Positions 10,471-62,949 of a DNA stretch of 64,000 bases are shown piece by piece. The stretch is taken from NCBI RefSeq assembly GCF_006385175.1, contig NZ_VFIY01000018.1:620001-684000 (forward strand), given 5' to 3'. Source of the stretch: Emcibacter nanhaiensis (GTDB lineage Bacteria; Pseudomonadota; Alphaproteobacteria; Sphingomonadales; Emcibacteraceae). Both the position numbers and the translations under genes were made by a program. Numbering within the stretch: position 1 is the stretch's first letter; each line of letters starts with the position of its first letter. The notes under the pieces are model-generated. The model had not been told where the DNA came from. It ran no database searches and saw only the letters and a program-made list of their open reading frames with translations.

Positions 10471-12300
<1,830 letters not shown>

Positions 12301-37382: not shown

Positions 37383-38783
<1,401 letters not shown>

Positions 38784-38865
38784 CTATCTCCTATATTGAA
38801 ATGATAATGGGGGGAGGAAATTTCCTCGATTTCCTGACTAATTTGAGTCTTACACTCATTTCATA

Positions 38866-38939
38866 TTGCATGCAAGTTTTATTTTTGATACAGGTATTGC
38901 AGCAAGTTTAGGCGGGTATTTGGTATTTTTTGCATGCAA
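38866..38939. promoter_or_regulatory. Paired TTGCATGCAA palindromes between ligM and purU
   Basis: Identical 10-bp palindromes at 38866-38875 and 38930-38939 lie 88 bp from each divergent start codon, with centres 64 bp apart. A related TTGC-A-GCAA sits between them (38897-38905). The symmetry suggests one regulator controls both arms. FCD-GntR regulators such as VanR use short operators of this kind, and an FCD-GntR gene follows folD. Confidence 0.65.
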
Positions 38940-39027
38940 TATTGCAAAGTTGAGATAAAAACCCCAATATGCGTCGCAATAATATATAACTGCCTTATAG
39001 GATCGGCTCGTACAGGAGAACAAAGCC

Positions 39028-39888
39028 ATGGAGAATACCTATATTCTGACCCTTTCATGTGTTGACCAGCCCGGACTGGTGGCCAAGGTGTCCGGCCTGC
39101 TTTTTGAAAAAGGCGCCAACGTACTGGACGCACAGCAATTTCGTGATGGGGATACCGGCCGGTTCTTCATGCGAATCGTTTATGACCTTGCCGGCAACAG
39201 CGGCAAAGCCGACGCCCTGAAAGCCGCCTTCGCGCCGCTGGCGGAAGAATTCGGCATGACCTGGCAGATCCACAACACCGCCGAAAAGCGGAAAGTCCTG
39301 CTTCTGGTTTCCAAATTCGACCACTGCCTGGGCGACCTGCTCTACCGCAATCGAATCGGTGAATTGAACATGGATGTGGTCGGAATTGTATCCAATCACC
39401 CGAAAGAGGTCCTCAACCTGACCCTGCTGGGCGACATCCCCTATTATCATTTCCCGATCACCAAGGACACCAAGCCGCAGCAGGAAGCCCAGATCAAACA
39501 AGTGATCGAGGATACCGGCGCCGAACTGGTGGTTCTGGCCCGGTATATGCAGATCCTGTCCGACGACTTCTCCGCCTTCCTGTCCGGGCGCTGCATCAAT
39601 ATCCACCATTCGTTCCTGCCCGGCTTCAAGGGTGCCAAGCCCTATCACCAGGCCTATGACCGCGGGGTGAAAATGATCGGCGCCACCGCGCACTATGTGA
39701 CCAAGGATCTGGATGAAGGCCCGATCATTGTGCAGGATGTTGAGGCGGTCAGCCATCGGGACACACCGGATGACCTGGTCCGCAAGGGCCGTGATATCGA
39801 GCGCCGGGTCCTGGCCCGCGCCGTTCATTATCACCTGGAAGACCGGGTCCTGACCAACGGCAGCAAGACCGTCGTTTTCCGCGACTGA
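39028..39888 (+). CDS. purU: Formyltetrahydrofolate deformylase
   Basis: 286 aa. Layout is an N-terminal ACT domain ([20 protein letters not shown]) and a formyltransferase-like hydrolase domain with [16 protein letters not shown] and [10 protein letters not shown]. It releases formate from 10-formyl-THF, regenerating free THF. Paired with folD and facing ligM-metF, it probably finishes disposal of methyl groups removed from methoxy-aromatics, as in sphingomonad C1 pathways. Confidence 0.94.
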
Positions 39889-39947
39889 TCCGACCACCCA
39901 GCACACAGATATCGGGGCCGCCGGCGGCGGCCCCCGGGAGTAGTAAA

Positions 39948-40805
39948 TTGGCTAAAATTATTGACGGCAAAAAGGTCGCCGCGACCATTCGCGACGACTG
40001 CGCCAAACGTGTTGAGAAACTCAAAGCGGCCGGGATCACCCCCGGCCTGGCGGTGATTCTAGTCGGAAGCGACCCGGCCTCGTCACTTTATGTAAGCAAC
40101 AAGATCAAGGCCTGTGAAAGTGTCGGCATCAAGTCCTTCAGTCATCATCATGACATGGACATCACCACCGACGAACTGGTGGCCCTGATCGAGAAACTGA
40201 ACAACGACCCGGAAGTCCACGGCATCCTGGTCCAGCTTCCCCTGCCCAAACATATCGATATGGAGCGGGTGCTGGAAACCATCTCCGTAGACAAGGATGT
40301 CGACGGCTTCCATCTCTATAATGTGGGCGGCTTGGTGGTCGGCAAGATGGTCTTTTCCCCCTGCACCCCCTACGGCGTGATGAAGATGCTGGAAAGCGAG
40401 AATATCCCGGTCGAGGGCCAGAATGTGGTTGTGGTCGGCGCCAGCAACATCGTCGGCAAGCCCATGGCCCTGATGCTGATGGCCCATGACGCCACCGTCG
40501 CCGTGTGCCACGCCAAGACCCGGGATCTGGCCCAGTTCACCATTCTGGCTGATATCCTGGTTGTCGCCGCCGGCGTGCCCAACCTGATCCTGCCCCAGAT
40601 GGTCAAGACCGGCGCAGTGGTGATTGATGTGGGTATCAACCGGTTGCCGGATGGCAGCTGGCGCGGCGATGTGGATTTTGAGGGCGTGTCGAAAAAAGCC
40701 TCCTATATCACGCCGGTGCCGGGCGGGGTCGGCCCGATGACGGTCACCATGCTACTGGTCAACACCATCGAATCCGCCGAGCGGCAGCTCAAAAAAGCAT
40801 CCTGA
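39948..40805 (+). CDS. folD: Methylene-THF dehydrogenase / methenyl-THF cyclohydrolase
   Basis: 285 aa with a TTG start at 39948 after GGGAG. It converts 5,10-methylene-THF to 10-formyl-THF. The family signature is VVGASNIVGKPMALMLM (usually GRSNIVGKP) and the end has PVPGGVGPMTVTMLL; the active-site Lys region SLYVSNK is intact. It follows purU on the same strand with a 59-bp gap. Order of use would be MetF, FolD, PurU. Confidence 0.95.
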   Translation: MAKIIDGKKVAATIRDDCAKRVEKLKAAGITPGLAVILVGSDPASSLYVSNKIKACESVGIKSFSHHHDMDITTDELVALIEKLNNDPEVHGILVQLPLPKHIDMERVLETISVDKDVDGFHLYNVGGLVVGKMVFSPCTPYGVMKMLESENIPVEGQNVVVVGASNIVGKPMALMLMAHDATVAVCHAKTRDLAQFTILADILVVAAGVPNLILPQMVKTGAVVIDVGINRLPDGSWRGDVDFEGVSKKASYITPVPGGVGPMTVTMLLVNTIESAERQLKKAS

Positions 40806-40807
40806 TT

Positions 40808-41563
40808 CTACTTTTCTTCTCTGCTGGCCACTTCCAGGTCCAGCAGCGAAGCCCCCGGAATCCGTTCCAGAAGGTCCATCCGGCTCAGGGCGCGGGAGAA
40901 TATCTTCAGCGCCAGCTGGGCATGCTCGCGGGCCAGGGCTTCCGCCCGCTGTCCCTGCCCTTTTTCAATCGCCTCAAGCAGGTTGGCATGCTGATACTGG
41001 CCGAACCGCAGCAGTTCGATGTGCTCACGGGAATCGCCACCGGTAAACGCGAAGGCATTGGGACCGGAGAACGGCAGGCTGGACACATGGCCAAGCGAAC
41101 GGTTCAGCATGGCGCTGTCGGCAAGTTTCAGGAGTAAGTCGTGAAACTCGCCGTTCATTTCCTTGTATTCCTCCACCAGCAGGGCGCGGTCATCCATCCG
41201 GATAATTTCATCCATCGTTTTCGTGACCTTGCGCAGGGGCTCCAGTTCCTCTTTAGACAATCGCTTTTCGGCAACACGGCGGGCGGCCAGACCTTCCAGC
41301 GCACCCCTGATCTCGATGGCGTCATGCACGTCCTGAATGGTGAACTGGCGTACCGTGAAGCCACCCCGCGGCAGGGTACGCAGGAACCCTTCATGTTCGA
41401 GAATCGTCAGGGCCAGACGCACCGGCGTGCGGGAGATGTCGAGTTTTTCCACCACCGCCAGCTCGGACACGCGCTGGCCGACGGCGAATTCGCCCCGCAG
41501 AATCATTCTGCGGATTTCCTGCAGAGCCTGAACCTGTTGGGGGGAACGTGGCGTCGTCTTCAT
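40808..41563 (-). CDS. GntR-family regulator, FCD type
   Basis: 251 aa. Winged helix at 12-75 (LRGEFAVGQRVSELAVVEKL, then ISRTPVRLAL) and an all-helical FCD ligand domain with the metal-binding type residues in MNGEFHDLL and later His-containing helices. VanR, the vanillate repressor of Caulobacter, belongs to this class. It converges on folD (2-bp gap) and diverges from the enoyl-CoA hydratase gene. It is the best local candidate to bind TTGCATGCAA sites. Confidence 0.87.
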   Translation of the reverse strand: MKTTPRSPQQVQALQEIRRMILRGEFAVGQRVSELAVVEKLDISRTPVRLALTILEHEGFLRTLPRGGFTVRQFTIQDVHDAIEIRGALEGLAARRVAEKRLSKEELEPLRKVTKTMDEIIRMDDRALLVEEYKEMNGEFHDLLLKLADSAMLNRSLGHVSSLPFSGPNAFAFTGGDSREHIELLRFGQYQHANLLEAIEKGQGQRAEALAREHAQLALKIFSRALSRMDLLERIPGASLLDLEVASREEK

Positions 41564-41903
41564 TTCGAATCCGAAATGTATAGATTATTGTCGAAACACA
41601 AACTCACGGTGATGTCCTGACCTCTTGGTAACCTTTTATTTCTGTTATATTTTCCGGTGCAGCGCCGCCCTCCGGCAGCGATCAGCCATATTGCATGCAT
41701 TATGCTTTGCCGCAAGTTGGTCCGTCAACGGGAAATATCTACATTTACAGAAACATCAAAAGGTTAGAGACTGTTCCCGGCGGCAGGGAAGCAGGAGTTT
41801 AGTTACAAAGGATACAAATATTTTGTCCTGCGCCCCGTCTGGTGGTATCACCACAGAATATTCCGGAAGATTTATGGCCGAAAGATTTATGGGAGTTCCA
41901 GCA
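41564..41903. promoter_or_regulatory. 340-bp divergent promoter region with a TTGCATGCAT site
   Basis: No gene is supported here. A 9/10 match to the island palindrome (TTGCATGCAT) lies at 41691-41700, between the GntR gene and the hydratase. A small hairpin TGGTG-GTAT-CACCA lies at 41840-41853. The rest is AT-rich leader. Confidence 0.5.
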
Positions 41904-42704
41904 ATGACCGAGACCCAGACCAGCGAAGAGCCCACTGTCCTTGTGGAGGAGAAAGACAACGACATCCTGTTGATCACCCTCAACCGGCCCCGCTCCCGCA
42001 ACGCCCTGAACCTGCAAGTCTGGGAAGAACTGGACGCGGCGGTACGGAAGGCAGAAGGAGCCACCCCGCCCCGGGCCGTGATCCTGACCGGCGCCGGCGG
42101 CTTTTTCAGCGCCGGCGGTGACCTGAAAAGCACCCCGGCCCTGGGCGACGGCGCTTTGGCCCCGGCGGCGCGGCTGGAACTCGGCCAGAAAATCATCCGT
42201 CGGCTGCATGACCTGCCGGTTCCGGTCATCGCTGCGGTGGAAGGCGGCGCCTACGGCATCGGCTGGAGCCTGGCGCTGGCCGGCGACCTGATCATTTCTT
42301 CGGACGAGGCAAGATATTGCGCGCCGTTCCTGAGCCTGGGCCTGGTGCCGGACGGCGGTTGTGTCTGGTTCCTGCGCCGCAAGCTCGGCGCCTACCAGGC
42401 GTCGGAAATTATTCTATCCGAGCGGGTGGTGGACGCAAACGAAGCCTCTGACCTGGGCCTGGTCAGCAAACTGGTGCCGGCCGGCAGCGCTATCGATACC
42501 GCCATCAAAATGGCCGCCGGATTCGCCAAGGGCAACCGCCATTCCGTGGAACTGACCAAGCGGCTGATGCGCGACGCCGATGGCAGCGACCTCGCCGCCA
42601 GCCATGCGCAGGAGCTGGCCTATTGCAGTATCTGCCAGACCGGACCGGAAGTGGCGAAAATGCGGGCCGAACGGGCCGCCAAGGCAAAAGAGAAAGAAAA
42701 ATAA
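41904..42704 (+). CDS. Enoyl-CoA hydratase/isomerase family protein
   Basis: 266 aa from the ATG at 41904 (GGGAG at 8-nt spacing); the longer upstream frame is not used. Crotonase-fold motifs: LNRPRSRNALNL, the oxyanion segment FFSAGGDLKS and AAVEGGAYGIGWSLALAGD. The active-site Glu pair of hydratases is not obvious. It precedes a CaiB-type CoA transferase by 50 bp. The substrate may be an aromatic side-chain acyl-CoA, but this is inferred from position. Confidence 0.87.
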   Translation: MTETQTSEEPTVLVEEKDNDILLITLNRPRSRNALNLQVWEELDAAVRKAEGATPPRAVILTGAGGFFSAGGDLKSTPALGDGALAPAARLELGQKIIRRLHDLPVPVIAAVEGGAYGIGWSLALAGDLIISSDEARYCAPFLSLGLVPDGGCVWFLRRKLGAYQASEIILSERVVDANEASDLGLVSKLVPAGSAIDTAIKMAAGFAKGNRHSVELTKRLMRDADGSDLAASHAQELAYCSICQTGPEVAKMRAERAAKAKEKEK

Positions 42705-42754
42705 CTCCTTTACTGCCCGGCACGGCTAATCAAAAAAAGAGGGATATAAGCTTC

Positions 42755-43975
42755 ATGCGTGCACTGGATGACATTATTGTTCTCGACCTGAGCCGGGTGC
42801 TGGCCGGGCCTTGGGCGACCCAGACCCTGGCCGATCTCGGCGCCCGGGTCATCAAGGTGGAAAAACCCGGCGCGGGGGACGACACCCGTGGCTGGGGACC
42901 ACCGTTCCTGACTGACCCTGAAACGGGCGAGCGAGACGATGCCGCCTATTATCTCTGCGCCAACCGGGGCAAAGACTCGATCACCGTCGACATGTCCACC
43001 CCGGAAGGCCAGGACATTATCCGCCGCCTTGCCGAAAAGGCCGATGTGCTGGTGGAAAATTACAAGGTCGGCGGCCTGAAGAAATACGGCCTCGATTACC
43101 CTAGCCTGAAAGAGATCAATCCGAAACTGGTCTATTGCTCCATCACCGGCTTTGGCCAGGATGGTCCCTATGCACCCCGGGCCGGCTATGATTTCATGAT
43201 CCAGGCCATGGCCGGCATGATGAGCGTGACCGGCGAGCGGGACGACCTGCCCGGCGGCGGCCCGCAGAAGGCCGGGGTCGCGGTTGCCGACCTTGGCGCC
43301 GGACTCTATGCCGCGGTCGCCATCCTCGGCGCCCTGCACCAGCGCGGCCGAACCAGCAAAGGCCAGCATATCGACATTTCCCTGCTCGACGCCCAGGTCT
43401 TCAACATGGCCAACCAGGCGCTCAGCTATCTGGTCAGCGGCACGGCCCCGAAACGGCTGGGCAACGGCCACGCCACCGTGGTGCCGTACCAGAGCTTCCC
43501 TACCAGGACCGGCCATATGATCATTGCCGTCGGCAATGACAACCAGTTCCGCAAACTGGTCACGGTGCTGGGTCGGCCGGAAATGGCCGACGATCCCCGG
43601 TTCCGCACCAATGGTGACCGGGTTGAGAACCGCGACGCCCTGATCCCGATGCTGGAGGAGATGACCCGTGAGCGCCCCAGCGGCGAACTGTATGAACTGC
43701 TGGAGAGTAGCTCCATCCCCTGCGGGCCGATCAACACTCTGGAGGATGTATTCCAGGATCCCCAGGTCATTGCCCGCGGATTGCGCAAGGACCTGCCCCA
43801 CGGCAAACATGGCACCGTGCCCGGGGTGGCCAGCCCGCTGCGCCTGTCCGACTCGCCGGTCAGCTATGACAAGGCGCCGCCGCTGCTGGGGGAAAATACC
43901 GACGAGGTGCTGGCTGACCTGCTGGGACTCGGTGAGACAAAGCTTGGCGACCTCCATGACAAGGAGATTATTTGA
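42755..43975 (+). CDS. CaiB/BaiF family (class III) CoA-transferase
   Basis: 406 aa from the ATG at 42755 (GAGGGA upstream). Family signatures are LDLSRVLAGPWATQTLADLGA, VIKVEKPGAGDDTR and the catalytic Asp within KDSITVDM-type context followed by LVENYKVGGLKKYGLDY. These enzymes move CoA between carboxylic acids. Co-transcribed with the upstream hydratase; substrate unknown. Confidence 0.9.
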   Translation: MRALDDIIVLDLSRVLAGPWATQTLADLGARVIKVEKPGAGDDTRGWGPPFLTDPETGERDDAAYYLCANRGKDSITVDMSTPEGQDIIRRLAEKADVLVENYKVGGLKKYGLDYPSLKEINPKLVYCSITGFGQDGPYAPRAGYDFMIQAMAGMMSVTGERDDLPGGGPQKAGVAVADLGAGLYAAVAILGALHQRGRTSKGQHIDISLLDAQVFNMANQALSYLVSGTAPKRLGNGHATVVPYQSFPTRTGHMIIAVGNDNQFRKLVTVLGRPEMADDPRFRTNGDRVENRDALIPMLEEMTRERPSGELYELLESSSIPCGPINTLEDVFQDPQVIARGLRKDLPHGKHGTVPGVASPLRLSDSPVSYDKAPPLLGENTDEVLADLLGLGETKLGDLHDKEII

Positions 43976-44066
43976 CCCGGGATCGGCAATAACTTGATTC
44001 ACGTCATGTGAAAAAATCGGAAAAATAGAGTATACTGGCGGCTCAATTCGGTAAATGAGGTGCAGC

Positions 44067-45440
44067 ATGTCTATTCCAACCCCGGACCAGGCCCTCATCG
44101 GGGCCCTTGAAAAATACGCCCGCCCCCTTGGCGGCGATTTGCAGGATTATGACGAAATCATCGACGCCGCCAGTGACAGGCACTTTGTCCTGATCGGCGA
44201 AGCATCGCACGGGACGCGGGAATTCTACCGCGCGCGGGCGGAAATCACTGAACGGCTGATCTCGGAAAAATCCTTCGATGCGGTGATCGTCGAAGCCGAC
44301 TGGCCGGACGCCTATCGCATCAATCGTTACGTCACCCAGATGAATGGGGATGAGTCTGCCAATGAGGCGCTCGGCGACTTTGAACGGTTTCCCACCTGGA
44401 TGTGGCGCAACCATGAAGTAGAGCATTTTGTGCACTGGCTGCATGACTATAACCTGCGTTATATCTCCTCCAATCCTGACCAGGCCCGGCGCACCAGGCC
44501 GGTCGGCTTCTATGGCCTTGACCTCTACAGCATGAATACCTCCATCCATGCGGTGATCGACTATCTGGACCAGATCGACCCGGAAGAAGCGCGCAAGGCG
44601 CGGCTGCGCTATGGCTGTCTCTATCATTTCATGGATGATCCCCACTCATATGGGCGCGCCATGGACAGAGGTCTGGCAGCTTCCTGCGAAGATGACATTG
44701 TCGCGCAACTGATGAAGCTCCGGGAAAAATCCATTTCCTATCTGGCGCGGAACGGTGTCCCCAACGAGGAACATTATTTCAGCGCTTTGCGAAATGCGGA
44801 ACTGGTCAAAAGCGCTGAGGAATATTACCGCGCCCTGTACCGCGGACGCCAGAACAGCTGGAACCTGCGCGACAAGCATATGTTCGAGACCCTGAACAGC
44901 CTGTCCGACTATCTGGAAGAACAGCTGGGCCGCCGGGCCAAAATCGTGGTCTGGGCCCATAATTCCCATGTGGGCAATGCGGCGGCCACCGAGATGGGGC
45001 GCCTCGGCGAGTTCAACATCGGCCAGCTGGCCCGGGAACATTATGGCCGCGACGCCCTTTTGGTGGGTTTTTCCACCTGTTACGGCACCGTAACAGCGGC
45101 TAATAACTGGGATGAGGACCCGGAAACCCAAATCGTCCGTCCGCCGATTGCCGGCAGCTACGAGGAACTGTTCCATCATGTGAATCACAAGAAGTTCCTG
45201 CTCAACCTGCGGGAAGACGGTGAGGTGGTGGATGGGCTGATGACGCCCCGGCTGCAGCGGGCGATCGGCGTGATCTACCGGCCGCAGACGGAACGGCAAA
45301 GCCATTATTTCGACAGCTGCCTGCCGGAACAGTTCGATTTCATGATCCATTATGACGAAACCGAAGCGGTGGAGCCGCTGCCCACCGTCATGCACCGGCA
45401 TAAGGGCGAACTGGACGAAACCTATCCGTCGGGGATCTAG
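44067..45440 (+). CDS. Erythromycin esterase-family protein
   Basis: 457 aa from the ATG at 44067 (GAGGTG upstream). Conserved Glu/His motif VLIGEASHGTREFYRARAE, then VIVEADWPDAYRINRYV, GFYGLDLYS and KIVVWAHNSHVGN. The family includes EreA macrolide esterases, but most genomic members have unknown substrates. Its place in an aromatic island may mean it acts on another ester or lactone. It has its own upstream region with TATACT at 44031-44036 as a possible -10. Confidence 0.85.
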   Translation: MSIPTPDQALIGALEKYARPLGGDLQDYDEIIDAASDRHFVLIGEASHGTREFYRARAEITERLISEKSFDAVIVEADWPDAYRINRYVTQMNGDESANEALGDFERFPTWMWRNHEVEHFVHWLHDYNLRYISSNPDQARRTRPVGFYGLDLYSMNTSIHAVIDYLDQIDPEEARKARLRYGCLYHFMDDPHSYGRAMDRGLAASCEDDIVAQLMKLREKSISYLARNGVPNEEHYFSALRNAELVKSAEEYYRALYRGRQNSWNLRDKHMFETLNSLSDYLEEQLGRRAKIVVWAHNSHVGNAAATEMGRLGEFNIGQLAREHYGRDALLVGFSTCYGTVTAANNWDEDPETQIVRPPIAGSYEELFHHVNHKKFLLNLREDGEVVDGLMTPRLQRAIGVIYRPQTERQSHYFDSCLPEQFDFMIHYDETEAVEPLPTVMHRHKGELDETYPSGI

Positions 45441-47032: not shown

Positions 47033-47220
47033 GTTTACCTCCATTTTTTTATTCCTTTGTCATTAAGGTAGCATGTCAGCTATTGAAGTCTATCCGCTTT
47101 TCCCATCTTGTGGGACTTGCCAACCCGCTCCGGCTGTATTATCCCCTAGAAAGGGAGCGCCGCCCGGCGCACTGTATCAACGCCGGGCTAACCAAAGCCA
47201 AAAAAGGAATCGGACAGGAT

Positions 47221-48009: not shown

Positions 48010-48024
48010 TTCAGGGGCAACTGA

Positions 48025-50452: not shown

Positions 50453-50497
50453 ATGATCATCCCTGGTTCGAGGGTTTTTAAATATCAAAGTGTCCTG

Positions 50498-50528
50498 AAA
50501 AAGAGAAAGGGTGTACATGACACCCTTT
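50498..50528 (-). terminator. Terminator after the TonB receptor gene
   Basis: On the minus strand AAAGGGTGT and ACACCCTTT (9-bp stem, 5-nt loop, 50506-50528) are followed by CTCTTTTTCA. It separates the receptor from the downstream flavocytochrome genes, which would need read-through or their own promoter. Confidence 0.85.
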
Positions 50529-50553
50529 CCCGATTGTTCTATGAGATCAAGAC

Positions 50554-52854: not shown

Positions 52855-53334
52855 AGAAAAACCTCCCATAATTGACTCAAGACATCTCGTCATAAGATTG
52901 TCTCCCGATAGATTTGCTTCCCTATTGGCTTTATTATTTAAGCCAGCGCCTTTATGGCGCTTATCTGTTTGTATAACATACTAACGAATTTTGGCAAGAC
53001 TGCTATATAACATTTGTTTTCATTGTGTCATTTTTGTCATTCATTTTTGCGATTAACCACCGTGACACACCAAAGGAGATACTGCACTTTGTATCCATTT
53101 TAATCGCCTATTTCCCATATATTATCAGTTAATTCGATTTTTTCGCCGTTCTGGGATACATTATGGTATAATGCAACAGCTCCCAACGCAAGCCTGTAAA
53201 TGCAGCAAAACGTTACAAACATAACACTTGATATGTTTTTTAAAATTCAGTATCACTTTCCTAAAATAGTTTGTTACACATACTAATAAGAAATATAGGG
53301 TTTTCAGGCAAACTAGAGAGCGGGAGGTTCCCAG
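52855..53334. promoter_or_regulatory. 480-bp AT-rich divergent promoter region of receptor and dioxygenase genes
   Basis: No gene is supported. CATACTAA occurs at 52977-52984 and again at 53279-53286, near opposite ends. AGCGCC-TTTAT-GGCGCT (52945-52961) is a hairpin in the receptor leader. CATTAT-GGT-ATAATG (53159-53173) is an inverted repeat that contains TATAAT (53167-53172), a possible -10. Confidence 0.5.
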
Positions 53335-54801
53335 ATGACGCATTTTCCAGACACGCCGAGCTTTACCGGCTTTAACACCCCTGCACGCATCGAGGCCGAC
53401 ATTATCGACCTGGACATTGAAGGCGAAGTACCCGCCGAAATGAACGGCGCCTTCTACCGGGTCCAGCCGGATCCCCAGTTTCCGCCCAGGCTGGGCGACG
53501 ACATCGCCTTTAACGGCGACGGCATGATCACCCAATTCCGGATCAAGGACGGTATCGTCAGCCTGCGCCAGCGCTGGGCCAAGACCGACAAATGGAAGCT
53601 GGAGAATGAAGCCGGCCACGCCTTGTTTGGCGCCTACCGCAATCCGCTGACCGATGACCCCAGCGTCAAGGGCAAGATTCGCAGCACCGCCAATACCAAT
53701 GCTTTCATCTTCGCCGGCAAGCTCTGGGCGATGAAGGAAGACAGCCCCAGCCTGCTGATGGATCCGGTCACACTGGAAAGCGACACTTTCGCGACCTGGG
53801 ACGGGGCGATGAAAAGCCAGACCTTCACCGCCCATCCCAAGATCGATCCGAAGACCGGCAACATGGTCGCCATCGGCTATGCCGCCAGCGGCCTGTGCAC
53901 CGACGATGTCTCCTATATGGAGATATCCCCGTCCGGAGAGCTGATCCGCGAGGAATGGTTCAAGGTCCCCTATTACTGCATGATGCATGATTTCGGGATT
54001 ACCGAGGATTATCTCGTGCTGCATATTGTGCCCTCTATCGGAAGCTGGGAGCGGCTGGAACAGGGCCTGCCCCATTTCGGCTTTGACACCACCCTCCCCG
54101 TCTATCTCGGCATCATCCCGCGGCGCAGCGGACTCGAACAGGAAGACATCCGCTGGTTCAAGCGCGACAACTGCTTCGGCTCGCATGTGCTGAATGCCTG
54201 GCAGGAGGGGACCAAGATCCACTTCGTCATCCCGGAATCGAAGAACAATTTCTTCCCCTTCTTTCCTGACGTGCATGGCGAGCCCTTCAAGCCGATGGAG
54301 GCCATGACGCGGCTGACCGACTGGACCGTCGATCTCGCCTCGAACGGTGAGGAATTCGACGCGATTACTCCACTGACCGAGACGGTCTCGGAATTCCCGC
54401 GGATCGACGATCGCTTCACCGGCCAGAAGACCCGCTACGGCTGGGGCCTCGAGATCGACATGAGCCGCCCGGTCGAGCTCAAGGGCGGCAGCGCCGGCGG
54501 GGTACTGATGAACTGCCTGTTCTTCAAGGACTTCGAGACAGGCAAGGAACAGCATTGGTGGTGCGGCCCGGTGTCAAGCCTGCAGGAGCCTTGCTTCGTG
54601 CCCCGCTCAAAGGACGCCCCGGAAGGCGACGGCTGGATCGTCCAGATCTGCAACCGGCTCGAGGACCATCGCAGCGACCTGCTGATCTTCGACGCCCTGG
54701 ACATTGAGAAAGGCCCTGTCGCCACCGCCAGGATCCCGATCCGGCTGCGCTTCGGCCTGCACGGCAACTGGGCCGATGCGGATGTCATCGGCGACGTGTA
54801 A
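53335..54801 (+). CDS. lsdA: Lignostilbene alpha,beta-dioxygenase (carotenoid-cleavage-oxygenase family)
   Basis: 488 aa. It cleaves the central double bond of hydroxystilbenes such as lignostilbene with O2, giving two aromatic aldehydes (vanillin). Four iron-binding His are present: His167 (FTAHPKI), His218 (MMHDFGI), His284 (GSHVLNA) and His476 (GLHGNW). Tyr101 (FGAYRNPLTDD) and Lys134 (WAMKEDSP), which hold the 4-hydroxyl in sphingomonad Lsd enzymes, sit at the same numbers. The start follows GGGAGG. It has its own terminator. Subgroup LsdA versus its paralogues cannot be settled by eye. Confidence 0.9.
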   Translation: MTHFPDTPSFTGFNTPARIEADIIDLDIEGEVPAEMNGAFYRVQPDPQFPPRLGDDIAFNGDGMITQFRIKDGIVSLRQRWAKTDKWKLENEAGHALFGAYRNPLTDDPSVKGKIRSTANTNAFIFAGKLWAMKEDSPSLLMDPVTLESDTFATWDGAMKSQTFTAHPKIDPKTGNMVAIGYAASGLCTDDVSYMEISPSGELIREEWFKVPYYCMMHDFGITEDYLVLHIVPSIGSWERLEQGLPHFGFDTTLPVYLGIIPRRSGLEQEDIRWFKRDNCFGSHVLNAWQEGTKIHFVIPESKNNFFPFFPDVHGEPFKPMEAMTRLTDWTVDLASNGEEFDAITPLTETVSEFPRIDDRFTGQKTRYGWGLEIDMSRPVELKGGSAGGVLMNCLFFKDFETGKEQHWWCGPVSSLQEPCFVPRSKDAPEGDGWIVQICNRLEDHRSDLLIFDALDIEKGPVATARIPIRLRFGLHGNWADADVIGDV

Positions 54802-54826
54802 GCAAACAGATCATCGTTAAATGCAC

Positions 54827-54862
54827 AACAAGCCCGCTCCTGCTGCAGCGGGCTTGTTTTTT
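54827..54862 (+). terminator. Strong terminator after the dioxygenase gene
   Basis: AACAAGCCCGCT (54827-54838) pairs perfectly with AGCGGGCTTGTT (54847-54858), 8-nt loop, followed by a T-run to 54862. It separates two convergent genes. Confidence 0.92.
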
Positions 54863-54876
54863 AGGTGTGAATACCT

Positions 54877-56400
54877 TTATTCAGATGCGCGGCACTCGAA
54901 ACTCCCTGCCTGATCCGTATCCCCTTCGCCTTTATAAACCGCCACCTGCGGATAGGGACACAGCGGCCGGGTTCTGACCACGGCGCCTTCCTTGTCAACG
55001 CCCGTGGCAATCACCCGGTCCGGAGCCTCGCCTTGCTCGACCCATTTCATGATCGCCCCGATCATGTCGAAACGATTGGGCCCCACCCCGCCGCGACAAT
55101 GATCCATGCCCGGCACCATAAACAGGCGGAAAAATTCATCCTGCGTCTCGGCCCCCATGGTTTTTGTCACCTGCTGGTAATAGTCCACTGTGTTGTAGGG
55201 AGACAGCCAGGGATCGGTCCAGCCATGATAGGTGATCAGCTTGCCGCCCCGGGCTTTATAGGCTGACAAATCCGTCTTCCAGGCGGAGAGACTGTCCCCG
55301 AGCCTTTTGTCCAGTGCGGGAATATCGCGATCCGGATCGAAGGTTTCCGGAGTCCAGTCCCGCTGATCCTCGGTGACGATTTCGGTAAGGGCCAGCTTCT
55401 GGTCGATTACCGGCACCCACAGGAACGGGGTCGCGCCATAGGCGTTGCCGGGATATACCGAAAGCCCTTTGGGGGTCTTTTCGGGGCCGTAAAGTTTATC
55501 CGCCAGATCTGTCTGCGCCTGGGTCAGGCAGCCTTCGGTCTGATCCTTTTTACAGACCAGCTCCCGGGCCGAGAAATCGCAGCTTCGCGGCTGGCTGATG
55601 ATACCGTCCTTAACCCCGTCCACCGGATCGCATTTGGCATAAGCCGCGGCAATCAGCAGCTCCACTTCCGGCTTTCCAAACATGCCCTCCGGATTGGCCC
55701 GTTTCATGGCATTGACCCAGAAGTCGCGGCTCTGCAGCCGGACGAAATTATTGGCCGGGGCCCCGGCGACAATGCCGTCATAGTCGTCCGGATATTTCTG
55801 GGCTTCCGTCAATCCCTGCCAGCCACCGGAGGAACAGCCCATATAATAGGATTTCTTTGGCCCCTTGCCGTAATGGACGGCAATGATTTTCTTGGCAGTG
55901 ACCGCCAGGAGATGGTGGGCCCGGTGGCCGAAATTTTCCACCCGGTCCGGATGGCCCCTGATCCAGCTGACATCAAACATATGGTCCGGCGTGACATGGC
56001 CGGTGTCGGTGGAGGCCGTGGCGAAACCGCGCATCACCGCTTCGTTCATGGCCGGAAAGTTCAACCCGCCCGAAAAGCCGCCGTTGCCGACGGCCTGAAA
56101 GCGGTCATTCCAGTCGAGTGGCAGCCAGACCTCAAAGCCGATTTCCTTTTCAATGACACCTGCCACCCGACAGAAGGCCGCATCTGTCCCCGGGTTGGGT
56201 CCGGCCAGAAAATTGAACACGGATGAAGGGAATGGCCACGCCTCGCCCCCCGGGATATCCTCTGCCACCGTTATGCGGACATCGGGAAGGTCGAGCGATT
56301 TAAGGTCGGCACAGTTGTTGGCATGGGCCATAGCCCCGGATCCGAAAACAGCAAAGACTGCCAGAAACCCCCAACAACTTCTTTTAACTCGGTTCAGCAT
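54877..56400 (-). CDS. Tannase/feruloyl esterase-family protein, secreted
   Basis: 507 aa with a signal peptide cut near MAHA-NN. The CS-D-HC motif of the family is complete: Cys189-Ser190 in GCSSGG, Asp in GWTDPWLS and His-Cys in MDHCRGG, the two Cys forming the active-site disulfide. It hydrolyses aromatic esters such as feruloyl, galloyl or related conjugates. It is last in the NTF2-ALDH-LigW-MFS-esterase string, so it likely frees the acids the island consumes. Exact ester unknown. Confidence 0.9.
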   Translation of the reverse strand: MLNRVKRSCWGFLAVFAVFGSGAMAHANNCADLKSLDLPDVRITVAEDIPGGEAWPFPSSVFNFLAGPNPGTDAAFCRVAGVIEKEIGFEVWLPLDWNDRFQAVGNGGFSGGLNFPAMNEAVMRGFATASTDTGHVTPDHMFDVSWIRGHPDRVENFGHRAHHLLAVTAKKIIAVHYGKGPKKSYYMGCSSGGWQGLTEAQKYPDDYDGIVAGAPANNFVRLQSRDFWVNAMKRANPEGMFGKPEVELLIAAAYAKCDPVDGVKDGIISQPRSCDFSARELVCKKDQTEGCLTQAQTDLADKLYGPEKTPKGLSVYPGNAYGATPFLWVPVIDQKLALTEIVTEDQRDWTPETFDPDRDIPALDKRLGDSLSAWKTDLSAYKARGGKLITYHGWTDPWLSPYNTVDYYQQVTKTMGAETQDEFFRLFMVPGMDHCRGGVGPNRFDMIGAIMKWVEQGEAPDRVIATGVDKEGAVVRTRPLCPYPQVAVYKGEGDTDQAGSFECRASE

Positions 56401-56424
56401 AATCTCCCCTTTCCAAATTGGGAA

Positions 56425-58044
56425 TCAAACCTTTTCCCCGGCCGCCCGGGCCCGATCCAGAAGCGTCGCCTCATCCTTCGGCAGCCGCCGGATCAGAACA
56501 AAGGTCAACAGGATCAGAAACGGCGAGATCCAGTAAAGATTGAGGATCGCCCCGGCCAGGTCGCCGCCGTTGATGTCGCTCATCAGGCCGATCACATAGG
56601 GACCGAGGCCAAGGCCGAAAATGGTCATGGTCAGGATATAATAGCTCATCACCGTGCCGCGCATGCGCGGCAGCACCAGGTCCATCAGGGTGGCGTAGAA
56701 CGGCGGCAGCCACATGGTCAGGATCAGGCCGTAGCAGGCAAAACTGAAATAGAACATCTCGACCGATTTGGACATGAAGGTGATGATCGCCAGCGGCAGG
56801 GACAGCGCCAGCGAAGCAAAGGTGACATAAAGGCGGCCACCGGCGAAGCGGCTGTTGGCCCAGTCGGACACCGGCCCGGCAATCAGCGGCCCGATAATGC
56901 CGATGGCGGCGATCATGGGACCGAACACCAGTCCCACTTCGGTGGGTTTCTGGCCGAAGGCCGTGATCAGATGGGTCGCCGTCCAGGCCATGACCCCGTA
57001 ATTGATTATGGTCTGCAGGGCGACAATGACAATCACCATGATCATGGACGGGGTCTTGACGATCAGTTCAAAGGACGGCTTGTCACGAAGCTTGAGGGAC
57101 TGCATCCAGCACAGGATGACATAGCTGCCGAAACCGATCACCATCCACTGCAGCTCATTACCGCCAAGATTCAAGGAACCGATCGACAGAGCGACCGGGT
57201 TTTCTTCCCTGAGGCCATTGGTCCAGGTGATCATCCCGGTCGCGGCCAGGATGATGGCCGCCAGGCCGCCGATATTGACAGCCCAGTCCCGGGCCCCGGC
57301 TTTCAGGCGGCTCATGGTGGCCCAGACCAGGCCGGGCAGGATCGAAGTCAGAGTCAGCCAGCTCTCCCGGAACGGATGCGGTTCGTCATGATGATCGATA
57401 CCGTCGGCAAGCCCGCGCCGCGGTTCCTTGGTGCGATACATCAGATAGCCGAGGATCAGGCCGGGAAGGGAAGCGACAAGAAATGCTGCCTGCCAGTCGC
57501 GCAGGCCAAGCGGGGCATTGCCGTCCGGCCAGGCCGCATCCCAGGCATCAGCGACCGCGCCACCGACGGTCAGGGCACCGCCGAGGCCAAGGGCGATGGA
57601 CGCGGCGATAATCGCCGTCACCGTGCCCCGCTGCCGTTTCGGGAACACATCAGAGACCAGGGACATGCCGGCCGGCTGTACGCTGGCCTCGCCCACGCCG
57701 ACCCCGAGGCGGGAAATGGCGAGCAGGCCGAACCCGTTGGCCATGCCGCCGAGCGCGGTCATGATTGACCAGCCGAAGATAGACAGGCCAAGCAGTTTGG
57801 TCCGGACCCAGCCATCGGCGAGGCGGCCGAGCGGCAGCGAGAAAACAGCATAAAACAGCGCAAAGACAGTTCCGTACAGCAGCCCCATTTCCGCATCGCC
57901 GATATGGAGGTCTTCCTTGATGCGCGGCATCAGGATGGCCAGGATCTGCCGGTCCACCATGGACATGGCCTGACACAGGCCGACCAGGGCCAGAATATAC
58001 CATGCTGTCCTGCCGCCCAGCTGCGGTGTGACATTATCTTTCAT
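56425..58044 (-). CDS. MFS transporter
   Basis: 539 aa with twelve or more predicted helices. The cytosolic loop 2-3 signature is LPLGRLADGWVRTKLLG and the N-terminal QAMSMVDRQILAILMPRI fits Spinster/aromatic-acid type carriers. It is longer than usual owing to an insert between helices 6 and 7 (about 200-300) with two extra hydrophobic stretches. It lies 24 bp before the esterase and 51 bp after the decarboxylase gene, so it probably imports an aromatic acid. Confidence 0.9.
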   Translation of the reverse strand: MKDNVTPQLGGRTAWYILALVGLCQAMSMVDRQILAILMPRIKEDLHIGDAEMGLLYGTVFALFYAVFSLPLGRLADGWVRTKLLGLSIFGWSIMTALGGMANGFGLLAISRLGVGVGEASVQPAGMSLVSDVFPKRQRGTVTAIIAASIALGLGGALTVGGAVADAWDAAWPDGNAPLGLRDWQAAFLVASLPGLILGYLMYRTKEPRRGLADGIDHHDEPHPFRESWLTLTSILPGLVWATMSRLKAGARDWAVNIGGLAAIILAATGMITWTNGLREENPVALSIGSLNLGGNELQWMVIGFGSYVILCWMQSLKLRDKPSFELIVKTPSMIMVIVIVALQTIINYGVMAWTATHLITAFGQKPTEVGLVFGPMIAAIGIIGPLIAGPVSDWANSRFAGGRLYVTFASLALSLPLAIITFMSKSVEMFYFSFACYGLILTMWLPPFYATLMDLVLPRMRGTVMSYYILTMTIFGLGLGPYVIGLMSDINGGDLAGAILNLYWISPFLILLTFVLIRRLPKDEATLLDRARAAGEKV

Positions 58045-58095
58045 TGTCTTCCCTTTTATACTTGTCCCTAAATCGCCCTCCCCCGAGCGCCTTTA

Positions 58096-59151
58096 TTACT
58101 TCAGATTAAAGACTCGCTCCGCATTTGTCTGCATCAGCTTCTTCTTCGTCTCGTCCGACACATCAAGCAGGTCATGGGCCCGCACTTCATCAGCCACATA
58201 TTCATAGGGGTAATCCATGGCATACATGACCCGGTCTTCCCCCAGCACGTTCTGGGCAAACTTGATGGCCGGTTCCCAGGCCATGCCGCTGGTGGTGACA
58301 CAGACGTTGGACTGCATATAGCCCTGGATGGTCTTTTTCAGGGGTTTCATGCGCTCATAGCGCTTGGCGCGCACCCCCGCCTGATGCATATAGTCGAGAC
58401 GATACAGCCAGTAGGGTAAAGCTTCGCCCATATGGCCGACGATGATCTGCAGATCCGGGTATTTGTCAAAGATGCCGATGGTGATCAGGCGCAGCAGGTG
58501 CATGCCGGTTTCCACCCCGAAACCGAAAATGGCGCCGTCGAGCCCGGCTTCCAGCATCGGATCAATCATGCTGTCCGGCGGGGTCTGGGGATGGATATAG
58601 AGCGGCTGGCCGGTCTCCGCCAGAGCGCGGAAGATGGGATCGAATTTCTCCTCATCCAGATATTCGCCCTGGGTATGGCTGTTGACCATCACGCCCTTGA
58701 AGCCAAGGTCGGCGCCGCGTTTGATTTCCGCCGCGCTCCACTCCGGGTCCTGCGGCGCAATGCTGGTCATGCCGACAAAGCGGGTCGGATGAGCCTCGCA
58801 CCGTTCGGCCAGATAGTCATTGGCCCGACGTACCATGCCTTTGGCTTCCTCAGCATCCAGCAGCGGCTGGACGCCGGGGGACGTCAGCGACAGGATCGCG
58901 ACGTCAATGCCGGTGGAATCCATATCGGCCAGGCGCCGCTGGTCCAGATCCAGCAGCCGGTCCATGATCAGCATGGCCCGCTCGGACGGGGACGTCGCAT
59001 AAAAGCCCCACAGCGACACCATACCCTTGTCGGCGGTGCCGTCCCTGACCATGCGCAGGTAGGCGTCAATCTGTTCCCGGGTGGCAAAGGCTTCCTCGGT
59101 GGCAATGCGCAGGTAGCCGCGATCGCCGCCGGTTTTCAGTTCATGTGTCAT
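58096..59151 (-). CDS. ligW: 5-Carboxyvanillate decarboxylase (LigW type, amidohydrolase superfamily)
   Basis: 351 aa. It decarboxylates 5-carboxyvanillate to vanillate without O2. The N-terminus (LKTGGDRGYLRIATEEAFAT) and segments LTSPGVQPL, DGAIFGFGVETGMHLLRLIT and RLDYMHQAGVRAKRYER match my recollection of LigW nearly word for word. Mn ligands fit with a one-residue shift after Glu19: His187 (YIHPQT), His240 (VGHMGE) and Asp313 (YAMDYPY). It starts 5 bp after the aldehyde dehydrogenase stop. Its product is the LigM substrate. Confidence 0.88.
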   Translation of the reverse strand: MTHELKTGGDRGYLRIATEEAFATREQIDAYLRMVRDGTADKGMVSLWGFYATSPSERAMLIMDRLLDLDQRRLADMDSTGIDVAILSLTSPGVQPLLDAEEAKGMVRRANDYLAERCEAHPTRFVGMTSIAPQDPEWSAAEIKRGADLGFKGVMVNSHTQGEYLDEEKFDPIFRALAETGQPLYIHPQTPPDSMIDPMLEAGLDGAIFGFGVETGMHLLRLITIGIFDKYPDLQIIVGHMGEALPYWLYRLDYMHQAGVRAKRYERMKPLKKTIQGYMQSNVCVTTSGMAWEPAIKFAQNVLGEDRVMYAMDYPYEYVADEVRAHDLLDVSDETKKKLMQTNAERVFNLK

Positions 59152-59156
59152 GTCAG

Positions 59157-60590
59157 TTATCCCTCGTGGACGGTTTTCATCACCAGACAGGCATCCAGGC
59201 CTTCCGGACCGTCTTCACAGCCATGACCGGACCATTTGACGCCACCGAACGGCGTATCCGCCCCGGCGATCATCACCGAGTTAATCCCCAGCATGCCGAC
59301 CTCGATCTCTTCGGCCAGCCGCCGCTGCCGGGCGCTGTCCCGGGTCCAGGCATATCCGGCCAGACCGTATGGCAGGCGGTTGGCTTCGGCGATTGCTTCT
59401 TCCTCGGTCTTGAAGGGATTGATCAGGGCCACCGGACCGAACGGTTCCTCGTTCATGATCCGGGTATCAAGGGGGATATCGGACAGGACGGTCGGGGCAT
59501 AGAAATAGCCCTGGTTGCCGATCCGCTTACCGCCGGTATGCAGTTTGGCGCCAGCATCCATCGCATCACCGATCAGCTGCTCCATGGCCTCGGGCCGGCG
59601 GGGATTGGCCATCGGCCCCATCTGGGTATCCGGGTCCAGGCCGTTGCCGACCCTGACGGCTTCCGCCCGTTCGGTAAAGCCTTTGACAAAACGCTCGTAA
59701 ATGTCTTCCTGCACGATAAAGCGGGTGGAAGAGACGCAGACCTGTCCGGCATTGCGGAACTTGTGGGCCGCCATGACGTCAAGCGCCTGGTCGACGTCAG
59801 CATCCTTGAACACCAGCACCGGACCATGACCGCCCAGTTCCAGGGTGGTCCGCTTCATATCTTCTGCCGCAAGCTTGGCCAGATGCTTGCCGACCACGGT
59901 CGAGCCGGTAAAGGACAGCTTGCGGATAATGGGCGAGGCCAGCAGATGACGAGATACTTCATCCGGCACCCCGAAGACAGCCTGGGCCGCCTCTTTGGGC
60001 AGGCCTGCATCCAGCAGTGCCTGCAGGATTCCCAGCGCGGAAGCCGGGGCTTCCTCGGCCGCCTTCATAATGACCGAACAGCCGGCGGCAATGGGGGCGC
60101 CGAGCTTGCGGGCCGGATTGCCAAGCGGGAAGTTCCAGGGGGCAAAAGCCGCCACCGGTCCGACCGGCACCTTGGTGACCATGGAGCGCTGTCCACCTTC
60201 GGGACGGGTCAGTATACGGCCGTAAATGCGCTGGCACTCGCCTGCATAAAAATCAAACAGGCCGGCGCCGATCATCACCTCGATCCGCGCCTCGCCGAAC
60301 GGCTTGCCTTCCTCCATGGTGGCATGGCGCGCCAGGTCATCGGCCCGTTCCCTGAGCAGGCGGGCCGCGCCCTGCAGCACGGCAGCACGTTCCTGCGGGG
60401 TGGACTTCTTCCAGATTTTGAAACCGCGATCCGCCGCCTCAAGGGCCCGGTCAAGGTCATCGGCATTGGCCAGCGGCAACTCGCCAAGGGGTTCCTCGGT
60501 CGCCGGATTAACCACCTGATGGGTGCGCCGCCCGCCACCGGACACGCGTTCACCATCAATAATCATATATAGTGAAGGATAGTCGCTCAT
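59157..60590 (-). CDS. NAD(P)+-dependent aldehyde dehydrogenase, probable vanillin-type
   Basis: 477 aa. Catalytic Cys285 (AGQVCVSSTR) and Glu251 (TLELGGHGP); cofactor segments APWNFPLGNPARK and LSFTGSTVVGK. The sequence class is succinate-semialdehyde/benzaldehyde dehydrogenase-like. Between an NTF2-fold gene (4-nt overlap) and ligW (5-bp gap), it most likely oxidises vanillin or a formyl-aromatic made by stilbene cleavage. Substrate is inferred from context. Confidence 0.88.
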   Translation of the reverse strand: MSDYPSLYMIIDGERVSGGGRRTHQVVNPATEEPLGELPLANADDLDRALEAADRGFKIWKKSTPQERAAVLQGAARLLRERADDLARHATMEEGKPFGEARIEVMIGAGLFDFYAGECQRIYGRILTRPEGGQRSMVTKVPVGPVAAFAPWNFPLGNPARKLGAPIAAGCSVIMKAAEEAPASALGILQALLDAGLPKEAAQAVFGVPDEVSRHLLASPIIRKLSFTGSTVVGKHLAKLAAEDMKRTTLELGGHGPVLVFKDADVDQALDVMAAHKFRNAGQVCVSSTRFIVQEDIYERFVKGFTERAEAVRVGNGLDPDTQMGPMANPRRPEAMEQLIGDAMDAGAKLHTGGKRIGNQGYFYAPTVLSDIPLDTRIMNEEPFGPVALINPFKTEEEAIAEANRLPYGLAGYAWTRDSARQRRLAEEIEVGMLGINSVMIAGADTPFGGVKWSGHGCEDGPEGLDACLVMKTVHEG

Positions 60591-61309
60591 TTTTCTGCCT
60601 TTTCGCGATCGATATCACCTTGCCAGCGTTCCGGCACGATGGGTTGCTTGGTTACCGGATGCACATTGTGGAACGGCACCACCTTGTGAGTCGGCCACAG
60701 CCAGACATCCTTTTTCAGTTCGTCAGGCCCGGTCGGGTCTTCCGGATAGGTGGTATCCAGGAACGGCACATACTGCGGACGGGTATTGGCCCAGCCGGTT
60801 TCGAAATCGGCATGCCACTGGGGACAGTAATTCAGCACATGAATCCGCCAGACACCATCTACCTTCTTGTATACATTTTCGTACAAACCGCCTTCCCACC
60901 ATTGGCGGGGTTCGCCGTAATCCTTGTGGCGTCCGGCCTGCATCATACAGCGGAAACGCCCCAGGGCCGTCACCCCGTCATCCTGAATATCAACGATATC
61001 CTGAAGCTGCGGATGATCAAGGAGAAATCCGTCAATGGGACCGTTGTTGCCGTGCGTGAAATTTTTCTGGAACCGCTCCACATAAAGGCGGCGGGCCCCG
61101 GCATGGCCTTTGTAAATGCCGCCGAAGAAATGCACTTCACAGTCTTCGGTAAACAGCTCGACGGTCTCGTTGTAAAGGCACTTATCGATAAGGTATCCGT
61201 AGAGATGATGCAGTTTGCGAACGGCCTGCTCATCCTCCCGGACGGTCAAGCGACGGGTCAGCTCGGCCACCTGGTTCTCCAGTGCCCTGATGCGATCTGA
61301 TTCAGACAT
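60587..61309 (-). CDS. NTF2/SnoaL-fold protein, candidate aromatic-dimer lyase
   Basis: 240 aa. An N-terminal heptad helix (IRALENQVAELTRRLTVRED) precedes a SnoaL_4-type NTF2 fold (about 25-165; VRKLHHLYGYLIDKCLYNE, VYKKVDGVWRIHVLNY), then a C-terminal extension rich in Pro and Trp. Members include cofactor-free dehydratases, isomerases and the diarylpropane gamma-formaldehyde lyase LdpA, which makes lignostilbene in sphingomonads. First gene of the five-gene minus-strand string. The fold is clear; lyase activity is an inference from the dioxygenase nearby. Confidence 0.75.
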   Translation of the reverse strand: MSESDRIRALENQVAELTRRLTVREDEQAVRKLHHLYGYLIDKCLYNETVELFTEDCEVHFFGGIYKGHAGARRLYVERFQKNFTHGNNGPIDGFLLDHPQLQDIVDIQDDGVTALGRFRCMMQAGRHKDYGEPRQWWEGGLYENVYKKVDGVWRIHVLNYCPQWHADFETGWANTRPQYVPFLDTTYPEDPTGPDELKKDVWLWPTHKVVPFHNVHPVTKQPIVPERWQGDIDREKAEK

Positions 61310-61393
61310 TGATGCGCTCCTGTGTTATTATGTTTTCCGCCTCACTCCCAATCGGGCGGAACAGTATTACAAAAAGACTTATACCAAAAAAAA

Positions 61394-61493
61394 TTAGTAT
61401 GCAATACTAACTGATATTGCTATAAGACATTTATATGCACTGCTAACAGATTTTGAGAAAACGATAACAGCTGTTAGTATATATTGCATGCAA
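61394..61493. promoter_or_regulatory. Three palindromes between the NTF2 and MFS genes
   Basis: TTAGTAT-GCA-ATACTAA (61394-61410) has perfect 7-bp arms. TAACAGCTGTTA (61465-61476) is a perfect 12-bp palindrome. TTGCATGCAA (61484-61493) is identical to the ligM/purU sites and lies 54 bp before the MFS start. The gap is 238 bp and AT-rich with no gene. Confidence 0.6.
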
Positions 61494-62906: not shown

Positions 62907-62949
62907 GTTCGGCAGCTCACTTAAATTCGAAAGATGTAGGAGAATTTGA

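Follow-up and report, generated by a model that had tools for sequence, protein, structure and literature searches.

Atu1419 is a tetrameric FCD-GntR repressor of Agrobacterium fabrum that recognizes the 10-bp palindrome ATGTATACAT, in which the G at position 3 is essential. Its targets, a LigM homologue and a gene for a MetF-like protein, are repressed with DNA looping between two sites, and methylene-tetrahydrofolate (methylene-THF) is its proposed effector (PMC7797058). The footprint protected from DNase I by Ms0535, a VanR-like GntR protein of Mycobacterium smegmatis, is CCTTGCATGCATTCTTGCATGCAAGG and contains TTGCATGCAA (PMC4609117). In Sphingobium SYK-6, ligM is repressed by the MarR-type protein DesR, and vanillate relieves this repression (PMC6888825). 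In the chloromethane metabolism of Methylobacterium CM4, dedicated MetF2, FolD and PurU enzymes oxidize a THF-bound methyl group to formate (PMC3621897). GntR control of a ligM homologue, TTGCATGCAA within a GntR site and the MetF2-FolD-PurU chain are already in print, and no paper that connects a VanR-type repressor with ligM, purU/folD and formate dehydrogenase was found in the open-licence literature. Here, we analyzed a 64,000-bp stretch of the Emcibacter nanhaiensis genome (contig NZ_VFIY01000018.1, positions 620,001 to 684,000; hereafter the window), in which an earlier reading made from the sequence alone had proposed that the palindrome TTGCATGCAA marks a regulon around ligM, purU and an FCD-GntR gene. 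We propose that TTGCATGCAA, extended as WTTGCATGCAAW, is probably the operator of this FCD-GntR protein (product of 40808-41563), which would repress a regulon that converts the methyl group of vanillate to CO2. The new part is a single distributed regulon reaching formate dehydrogenase under a protein of the VanR clade and not of the Atu1419 clade.

A scan of the window located three exact copies of TTGCATGCAA and a 9/10 copy, TTGCATGCAT, at the places that the sequence-only reading had given. The sites and the genes beside them are as follows.

36422..37291, minus strand: metF-like gene, a divergent methylene-THF reductase (Pfam MTHFR, 32.7 bits, cut-off 24), on the same strand as ligM and just after it
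37383..38777, minus strand: ligM, THF-dependent vanillate/3-O-methylgallate O-demethylase (NCBIfam NF047885, 825 bits, cut-off 580)
38866..38875, no strand: predicted operator, exact TTGCATGCAA, 88 bp upstream of ligM, within the longest stretch without variation among three genomes (13 bases)
38930..38939, no strand: predicted operator, exact TTGCATGCAA, 88 bp upstream of purU and 64 bp from the first site
39028..39888, plus strand: purU, formyl-THF deformylase (TIGR00655, 354 bits, cut-off 286)
39948..40805, plus strand: folD, one of two in the genome (family match)
40808..41563, minus strand: FCD-GntR gene of the VanR group, the proposed repressor (Pfam GntR and FCD; best PDB match Atu1419; tree; AlphaFold2 model)
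41691..41700, no strand: predicted operator, 9/10 copy TTGCATGCAT, 127 bp before the GntR gene and 203 bp before the hydratase ATG
41904..42704, plus strand: gene of the enoyl-CoA hydratase/crotonase family, divergent from the GntR gene (below cut-off in all matches listed)
61484..61493, no strand: predicted operator, exact TTGCATGCAA, 54 bp before a major facilitator superfamily (MFS) gene and 174 bp before a SnoaL gene

The ligM/purU pair is symmetric, as had been noted, with exactly 88 bp between each site and the respective start codon. Own-genome Markov models predict 0.05-0.14 exact copies per 64 kb, compared with the three observed. The earlier statement that the window holds no other copies is correct for exact matches but not for 9/10 matches, because TTGCACGCAA lies at 10508, within an open reading frame (ORF; 10471-12300), and TTGAATGCAA at 62946, where it overlaps the start codon (62950) of a short-chain dehydrogenase/reductase gene. 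At this looser level (up to one mismatch), six matches were found in the window versus 3.2 in shuffled sequences, and at least six occurred in 9 of 100 shuffles, which is not significant. All copies reported earlier are intergenic, conditionally in the case of 41691, whose placement depends on taking ATG 41904 as the hydratase start; this start is suggested by homology, given that 24 of the 25 family matches listed do not start until residues 97-110 of the longer ORF, which opens with TTG. The 41691 site has the third-highest position weight matrix (PWM) score in the window, but it belonged to the training set of that matrix. Promoter predictions at three site regions were near chance level. 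A ATTGTATCCAAT sequence within purU (39386) was taken as a coding coincidence.

Is the site pair kept where the repressor is kept? Among 40 genomes of the family and order, including that of E. nanhaiensis (G000), ligM is present at E<=1e-80 in four (G000, G008, G022 and G025), and GntR relatives are present at E<=1e-20 in six and at E<1e-50 in three, namely G000, G022 (67% identical) and G008 (40%). The three genomes with both ligM and the GntR gene carry the site pair between ligM and purU, and G025, which has ligM without the GntR gene, has no pair. The two sites are 64 bp apart in G000, 72 bp apart in G008 (ATTGCATGCAAT twice) and 73 bp apart in G022 (ATTGCATGCAAT and ATTGTATACAAT; that is, TTGCATGCAA and TTGTATACAA). 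The longest invariant run in the three-way ligM/purU alignment is ATATTGCATGCAA, and the mean column identity is 59%. This conservation is that of the ligM/purU arm only.

The co-occurrence was examined in a comparison of 18 LigM/DesA-type loci, two of which have an in-frame stop; many of these loci are related, and they are thus not 18 independent trials. A related GntR gene lies nearby in 5 of the 18, and three of these five have a TTGYATRCAA pair before ligM. TTGTATACAA is found ahead of the GntR-ligM pair of G155, and the E. nanhaiensis desA locus has the variant ATGTATCCAA. No TTGYATRCAA occurs in the 700 bp before ligM in any of the 13 loci where tblastn found no related GntR, five of which offered only ~1.5 kb of flank per side for finding one; a looser WTGNATNCAW is present in one of the 13, G281b. 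The GntR search of genome contigs gave two loci, a NORP245 metagenome-assembled genome, which was counted once with G022, and a remote Streptomyces match (31%), which was dropped.

The GntR product is a 251-residue protein that consists of an N-terminal winged helix-turn-helix domain (Pfam GntR, 47.5 bits) and a C-terminal FCD domain (58 bits), both above cut-off. Its best PDB relative by sequence is Atu1419 (PDB 6z74, 6za0, 6za3, 6za7 and 6zab; 145 bits, compared with 51 for the next; 38-41% identity), and the 12 best Foldseek matches in the PDB are all Atu1419 chains. The AlphaFold2 model, built from 23 alignment rows, has a mean predicted local distance difference test score of 92 and contains six long effector-domain helices (76-227). 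Six is the number reported for the VanR group, and the FadR group has one more (PMC7797058). The residues with which Atu1419 contacts or reads its operator (E34, R45, T46 and R49) are kept, as are the zinc ligands (N137, H141, H192 and H214), a set of Asn/Asp plus three His that several members of the group have, and all of these are invariant in the 23 rows. The ligand contacts R86, Y133, N137, H141 and H214 of Atu1419 are also retained.

vanAB encodes a Rieske monooxygenase that releases formaldehyde. In a midpoint-rooted tree of 33 rows, which holds no characterized VanR and in which the label 'VanR' is given to rows with vanAB as neighbours, the window GntR and its NORP245 relative fall in a seven-row clade (support 96/93) made up of four vanAB-linked and three ligM-linked rows. 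Atu1419 falls in a separate, loosely supported group, which also holds two vanAB-linked rows. The window GntR resembles the VanR of vanAB in Acinetobacter and Caulobacter (PMC12314914) in that it groups with vanAB-linked proteins. However, its gene is not located with vanAB but between folD and the hydratase gene, and its target would be the THF-dependent LigM. Thus, a member of the VanR clade appears to act here as the repressor of a demethylase that depends on THF. In the class as a whole, 24 of 385 genomes contain GntR relatives at E<=1e-30.

The likeness to Atu1419 extends to the DNA, given that both palindromes have 10 bp with the G3/C8 that is essential in the Atu1419 operator (ATGTATACAT there, TTGCATGCAA here), lie before a LigM-type gene, occur as two sites per promoter region and would control a LigM-type demethylase together with a metF-like gene. 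The systems differ in operator letters 1, 4, 7 and 10, in three ligand contacts discussed below and in tree branch, and the regulon proposed here adds purU, folD, fdsGBA and ligAB. The suggestion that VanR-class proteins use a similar short palindrome finds support in these shared G3/C8 positions and in the identity of TTGCATGCAA with the core of the Ms0535 footprint. Unlike the proposed repressor, Ms0535 activates its own gene and an MFS permease, and its half-repeats are adjacent, not 64 bp apart. DesR belongs to another protein family and uses another site, GTTTGTGTAACATAC, and in Methylobacterium CM4 the methyl donor of the metF2-folD-purU route is chloromethane, with no VanR-type control described in the available part of that report. 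The co-occurrence at ligM loci, the placement in the tree and the G3/C8 match support the FCD-GntR protein among the sites as the candidate reader, and we consider that this neighbouring VanR-like repressor very probably reads the palindrome.

A genome-wide motif scan, which the earlier reading had proposed, recovered seven exact copies of TTGCATGCAA in the 3,963,826 bases (19 contigs) and none of the reversed pattern; the wider pattern WTTGYATRCAAW occurs seven times versus once for its reversed control. Six of the seven exact copies lie between genes: five before vanillate, one-carbon (C1) or ring-cleavage genes and one before the MFS/SnoaL genes. Two copies (C15:233030 and 233128), 98 bp apart, directly precede fdsG-fdsB-fdsA, the genes of an NAD formate dehydrogenase, of which FdsG and the formate dehydrogenase alpha subunit exceed their NCBIfam cut-offs, and the best match of FdsB is a NuoF relative, below cut-off. 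Another (C18:219357), with TTGCGTGCAA 53 bp on, lies between ligA-ligB and a methionine-synthase-like gene; LigA was assigned by Pfam and the class III extradiol dioxygenase by NCBIfam. The fdsGBA and ligAB sites lie elsewhere in the genome, so the candidate regulon is not confined to the island in which it was first noticed. The regulon itself is supported by the intergenic placement of six of the seven copies, by the pair kept in two relatives and by the co-occurrence of GntR and motif.

The gene opposite ligAB (L010:6587-7720) is divergent, lies under the two sites and belongs to the cobalamin-independent methionine-synthase family. Its homologues (72-73%) share a region with LigM-type, metF-like and folD genes in G281 and G362, and it is possibly an outlet for methyl-THF to methionine. 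A third fds site, a 9/10 copy, lies inside fdsG (L008:7239-7248, 110 bp after 7129); in the Atu1419 system, too, a degenerate site lies within the target ORF, 109 bp further on. The seventh exact copy (C15:330346; L009:5347) is inside a 97-residue ORF beside bioD/bioF and is probably there by chance. TTGTATACAA sites were also observed at C16:9785 and C18:598228. An automatic rule by which ORFs of at least 130 residues count as genes is a blunt measure of placement: it covers 23 of 30 sites in the loci of 29 relatives (L026-L054, which hold part of the hits only), 2 of the 7 exact E. nanhaiensis sites (at the fdsG and ligAB promoters, both through antisense ORFs) and the 41691 site, through the long TTG-start ORF. 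The refuting condition of the earlier reading, a motif just as common inside genes, is therefore answered only roughly.

What would such a regulon do? From the known functions of the enzymes, most of the site-linked genes would demethylate vanillate onto THF and then oxidize the methyl group to CO2. LigM would transfer the methyl group to THF. The resulting methyl-THF would be converted through methylene-THF and formyl-THF to formate by the MetF-like protein, the second FolD and PurU, and FdsGBA would oxidize formate to CO2 with a gain of NADH, while LigAB would open the protocatechuate ring. The MetF-like product scores 47.7 bits against TIGR00676, below the cut-off of 293.7. The other folD gene, at C5, is 52% identical to the window copy, and the presence of two folD genes suggests that the window copy is probably dedicated to this route; G022 likewise has two folD genes, and G008 has one. 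The removal and oxidation of methoxy-derived methyl groups is a hard step in lignin use, and a single operator extending from vanillate via folate to CO2 and NADH would name the genes that the cell treats as a unit.

In the absence of an inducer, the GntR protein, probably a tetramer organized as a dimer of dimers like Atu1419, would repress transcription by occupying one or two of the 10-bp palindromes at each promoter, where paired sites are mostly 52-73 bp apart; an inducer bound in the Zn-containing FCD pocket would release it. The paired sites fit a dimer of dimers that holds two sites. TTGYATRCAA pairs 46-76 bp apart were found at 14 places in 11 of the 385 class genomes, E. nanhaiensis included, versus two genomes for the reversed control, and the spacing is most often 62-65 bp (9 of the 14 pairs, some of them homologous). 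In a set of 31 sequences (the window, the E. nanhaiensis fds and ligAB loci, G008, G022 and 26 GntR loci), 13 pairs are 20-200 bp apart, at 53, 62, 62, 63, 63, 64, 64, 72, 72, 73, 98, 110 and 125 bp.

Similar pairs occur at vanAB. ATTGGATCCAAT is presumably the operator of Caulobacter VanR. A Caulobacter vanillate-promoter construct holds this sequence, whose ends are the same as those of ATTGCATGCAAT (PMC6538847). In G392 and G314, TTGCATGCAA-type pairs 63-64 bp apart lie at the start of vanA, with vanAB-linked GntR relatives, and the GntR relatives of L084-L087 have vanA/vanB as neighbours. vanA-GntR-vanB operons were observed in nine class genomes (L084-L087, L089-L091, L094 and L095), five of which have TTGCATGCAA, TTGTATACAA or ATGTATACAT near vanA or, in L087, inside it, and four none of these forms. 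Two more TTGCATGCAA pairs, 64-65 bp apart, are kept in both genomes of one genus (L131-L134 of G392 and G314), and tblastn found no GntR relative in these 15-kb loci.

Several observations weigh against the proposed regulon or some part of it. The genome-wide number of TTGCATGCAA copies is not significant by itself, with seven seen and 8.6, 2.9 and 3.2 expected from Markov models of orders 1-3 of own-genome DNA. In G008 and G022, WTTGYATRCAAW and its reversed control are equally frequent (5 versus 5 in each, the ligM/purU sites included), so that in these genomes the ligM/purU pair alone is conspicuous; no C1 gene was recognized by eye among the mechanical ORFs at their other sites (L145-L148, L150 and L151), which were taken as chance. 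The fds promoter of G008, whose FdsA is 73% identical, lacks a good site, the best being one of 12.4 bits ~3.9 kb upstream of fdsG; the fds arm is therefore not conserved there, and the fds comparison does not extend to G022, where the promoter falls at contig breaks. The 98-bp fds spacing is unlike that of other pairs. The site before the window GntR gene is a 9/10 copy, not an exact one, and no TTGnATnCAA occurs in the 350 bp before the GntR genes of G008 or G022. Only weak partner sites accompany 41691 and 61484. Strict helical phasing of the pairs is not specific to one period, given that the Rayleigh value is equally high for other periods. For several of the class pairs, tblastn detected neither a GntR relative nor a C1 gene nearby, so the site is a group-wide code and does not mark this pathway specifically. 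Finally, 25 first-look GntR candidates exist in the genome, another of which could share the motif.

Could the palindromes, then, be chance copies in AT-rich intergenic DNA? The genome count agrees with this explanation, and so do the 39 relatives, which hold 0-7 exact copies (mean 1.9, 73/39), two of them with six and seven. Because the copy number is barely above chance, the argument for an operator depends on position, gene function and conservation. The pair is conserved in three genomes, it co-occurs with the GntR gene, the copies lie mostly before genes of one pathway, and the number expected in 64 kb is far smaller than the number seen; we consider chance very improbable as an explanation of the whole set.

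The genome also contains a second module, which bears on the identity of the reader. GntR2 (C15:75372-76076), of the same family and 32% identical to the window GntR, is divergent from desA, whose LigM-type demethylase product scores 877 bits (cut-off 800) and which is followed by ligA/ligB-like genes (L175:5300-9126 = G000 C15:75299-79125); a third relative (32%) is located at C4. Such a paralogue, for instance GntR2, might read the TTGCATGCAA sites and leave the window GntR to control something else. However, the GntR2 neighbourhood carries sites of a different type, AWTGGATACAWT, in two pairs. The sites of one pair, both exact, are 52 bp apart, and those of the other, of which one is exact and one has a mismatch, are 62 bp apart. 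Three of the four exact genome matches to AWTGGATACAWT lie within 1 kb of GntR2, although this is partly circular because the pattern was derived from these sites. Moreover, relatives with the window GntR also have the TTGCATGCAA pair. The presence in this genome of a second demethylase, a second repressor and a second site type favours the window GntR as the reader of TTGCATGCAA, and we regard control by a paralogue as improbable.

With the window GntR as the reader, the signal to which it responds is a separate matter. We lean slightly towards vanillate or another aromatic acid as the inducer, ahead of methylene-THF. The same GntR might instead sense N5,N10-methylene-THF and thus the one-carbon load, which is a variant of the proposed mechanism and does not exclude it. 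Atu1419, which represses a comparable pair of genes, has methylene-THF as its reported effector, and the proposed regulon covers the enzymes that make and drain it. On the other hand, the citrate-contacting residues K175, R183 and N221 of Atu1419 are replaced by G, E and I in the window GntR, the tree places the protein with vanAB-linked VanRs and not with Atu1419, and the compounds to which a Pseudomonas VanR2 responds, at 30-50 mM, are syringate and 3-O-methylgallate (PMC12314914). These differences make methylene-THF rather unlikely as the inducer here.

A broader and more doubtful idea is that the whole VanR/Atu1419 clade senses methylene-THF as a sensor of one-carbon load and not of vanillate. 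Methylene-THF would be the meeting point of the two routes, because the formaldehyde from VanAB condenses with THF and the methyl-THF from LigM is oxidized by MetF. If true, this would explain how repressors of the clade and the paired operator can be exchanged between vanAB and ligM, and why one operator is shared by folD, purU and formate dehydrogenase in this genome. The regulon offers a clean test of whether VanR-group repressors sense an aromatic acid or the one-carbon pool, and it would be a case of a repressor clade that serves two unlike demethylases with its DNA code kept.

Further features of the window lie around the 61484 site.

58096..59151, minus strand: amidohydrolase (Pfam Amidohydro_2)
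59157..60590, minus strand: aldehyde dehydrogenase (best matches below their cut-offs)
60587..61309, minus strand: SnoaL-like protein (Pfam SnoaL_4), first gene of a minus-strand run
61395..61404, no strand: possible weak partner site TAGTATGCAA, 89 bp from 61484 (PWM 13.3 bits; may be chance)
61548..62906, plus strand: MFS transporter (matches below cut-offs)

The minus-strand run (54877-61309) contains SnoaL, aldehyde dehydrogenase, amidohydrolase, MFS and tannase/feruloyl esterase genes; it may be a single operon devoted to lignin aromatics that are esterified or carboxylated. Both the MFS/SnoaL genes and the hydratase gene may be members of the vanillate route, in which the sites at GntR/hydratase and at MFS/SnoaL-aldehyde dehydrogenase may add uptake and side-chain steps. 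A weak match to the erythromycin esterase EreB (26 bits, far below cut-off) was seen at 44055-45440.

The SYK-6 DesR box GTTTGTGTAACATAC, allowing up to three mismatches, has no match in the ligM/purU interval (38778-39027). The same scan gave four matches at three places in the window, compared with 0.5 in shuffled sequences, and at least four occurred in none of 100 shuffles. Two DesR-like sites, GTTTGTATAACATAC (one mismatch) and GTATGTGTAACAAAC (two mismatches, minus strand), at 52967-52981 and 53269-53283, lie between a TonB receptor gene (50554-52893, minus strand) and an RPE65-family gene (53335-54801, plus strand). The ORF at 53161-54555 is antisense to the latter and probably not a gene. 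The RPE65 family includes lignostilbene dioxygenases, and a second regulatory code may operate in this region.

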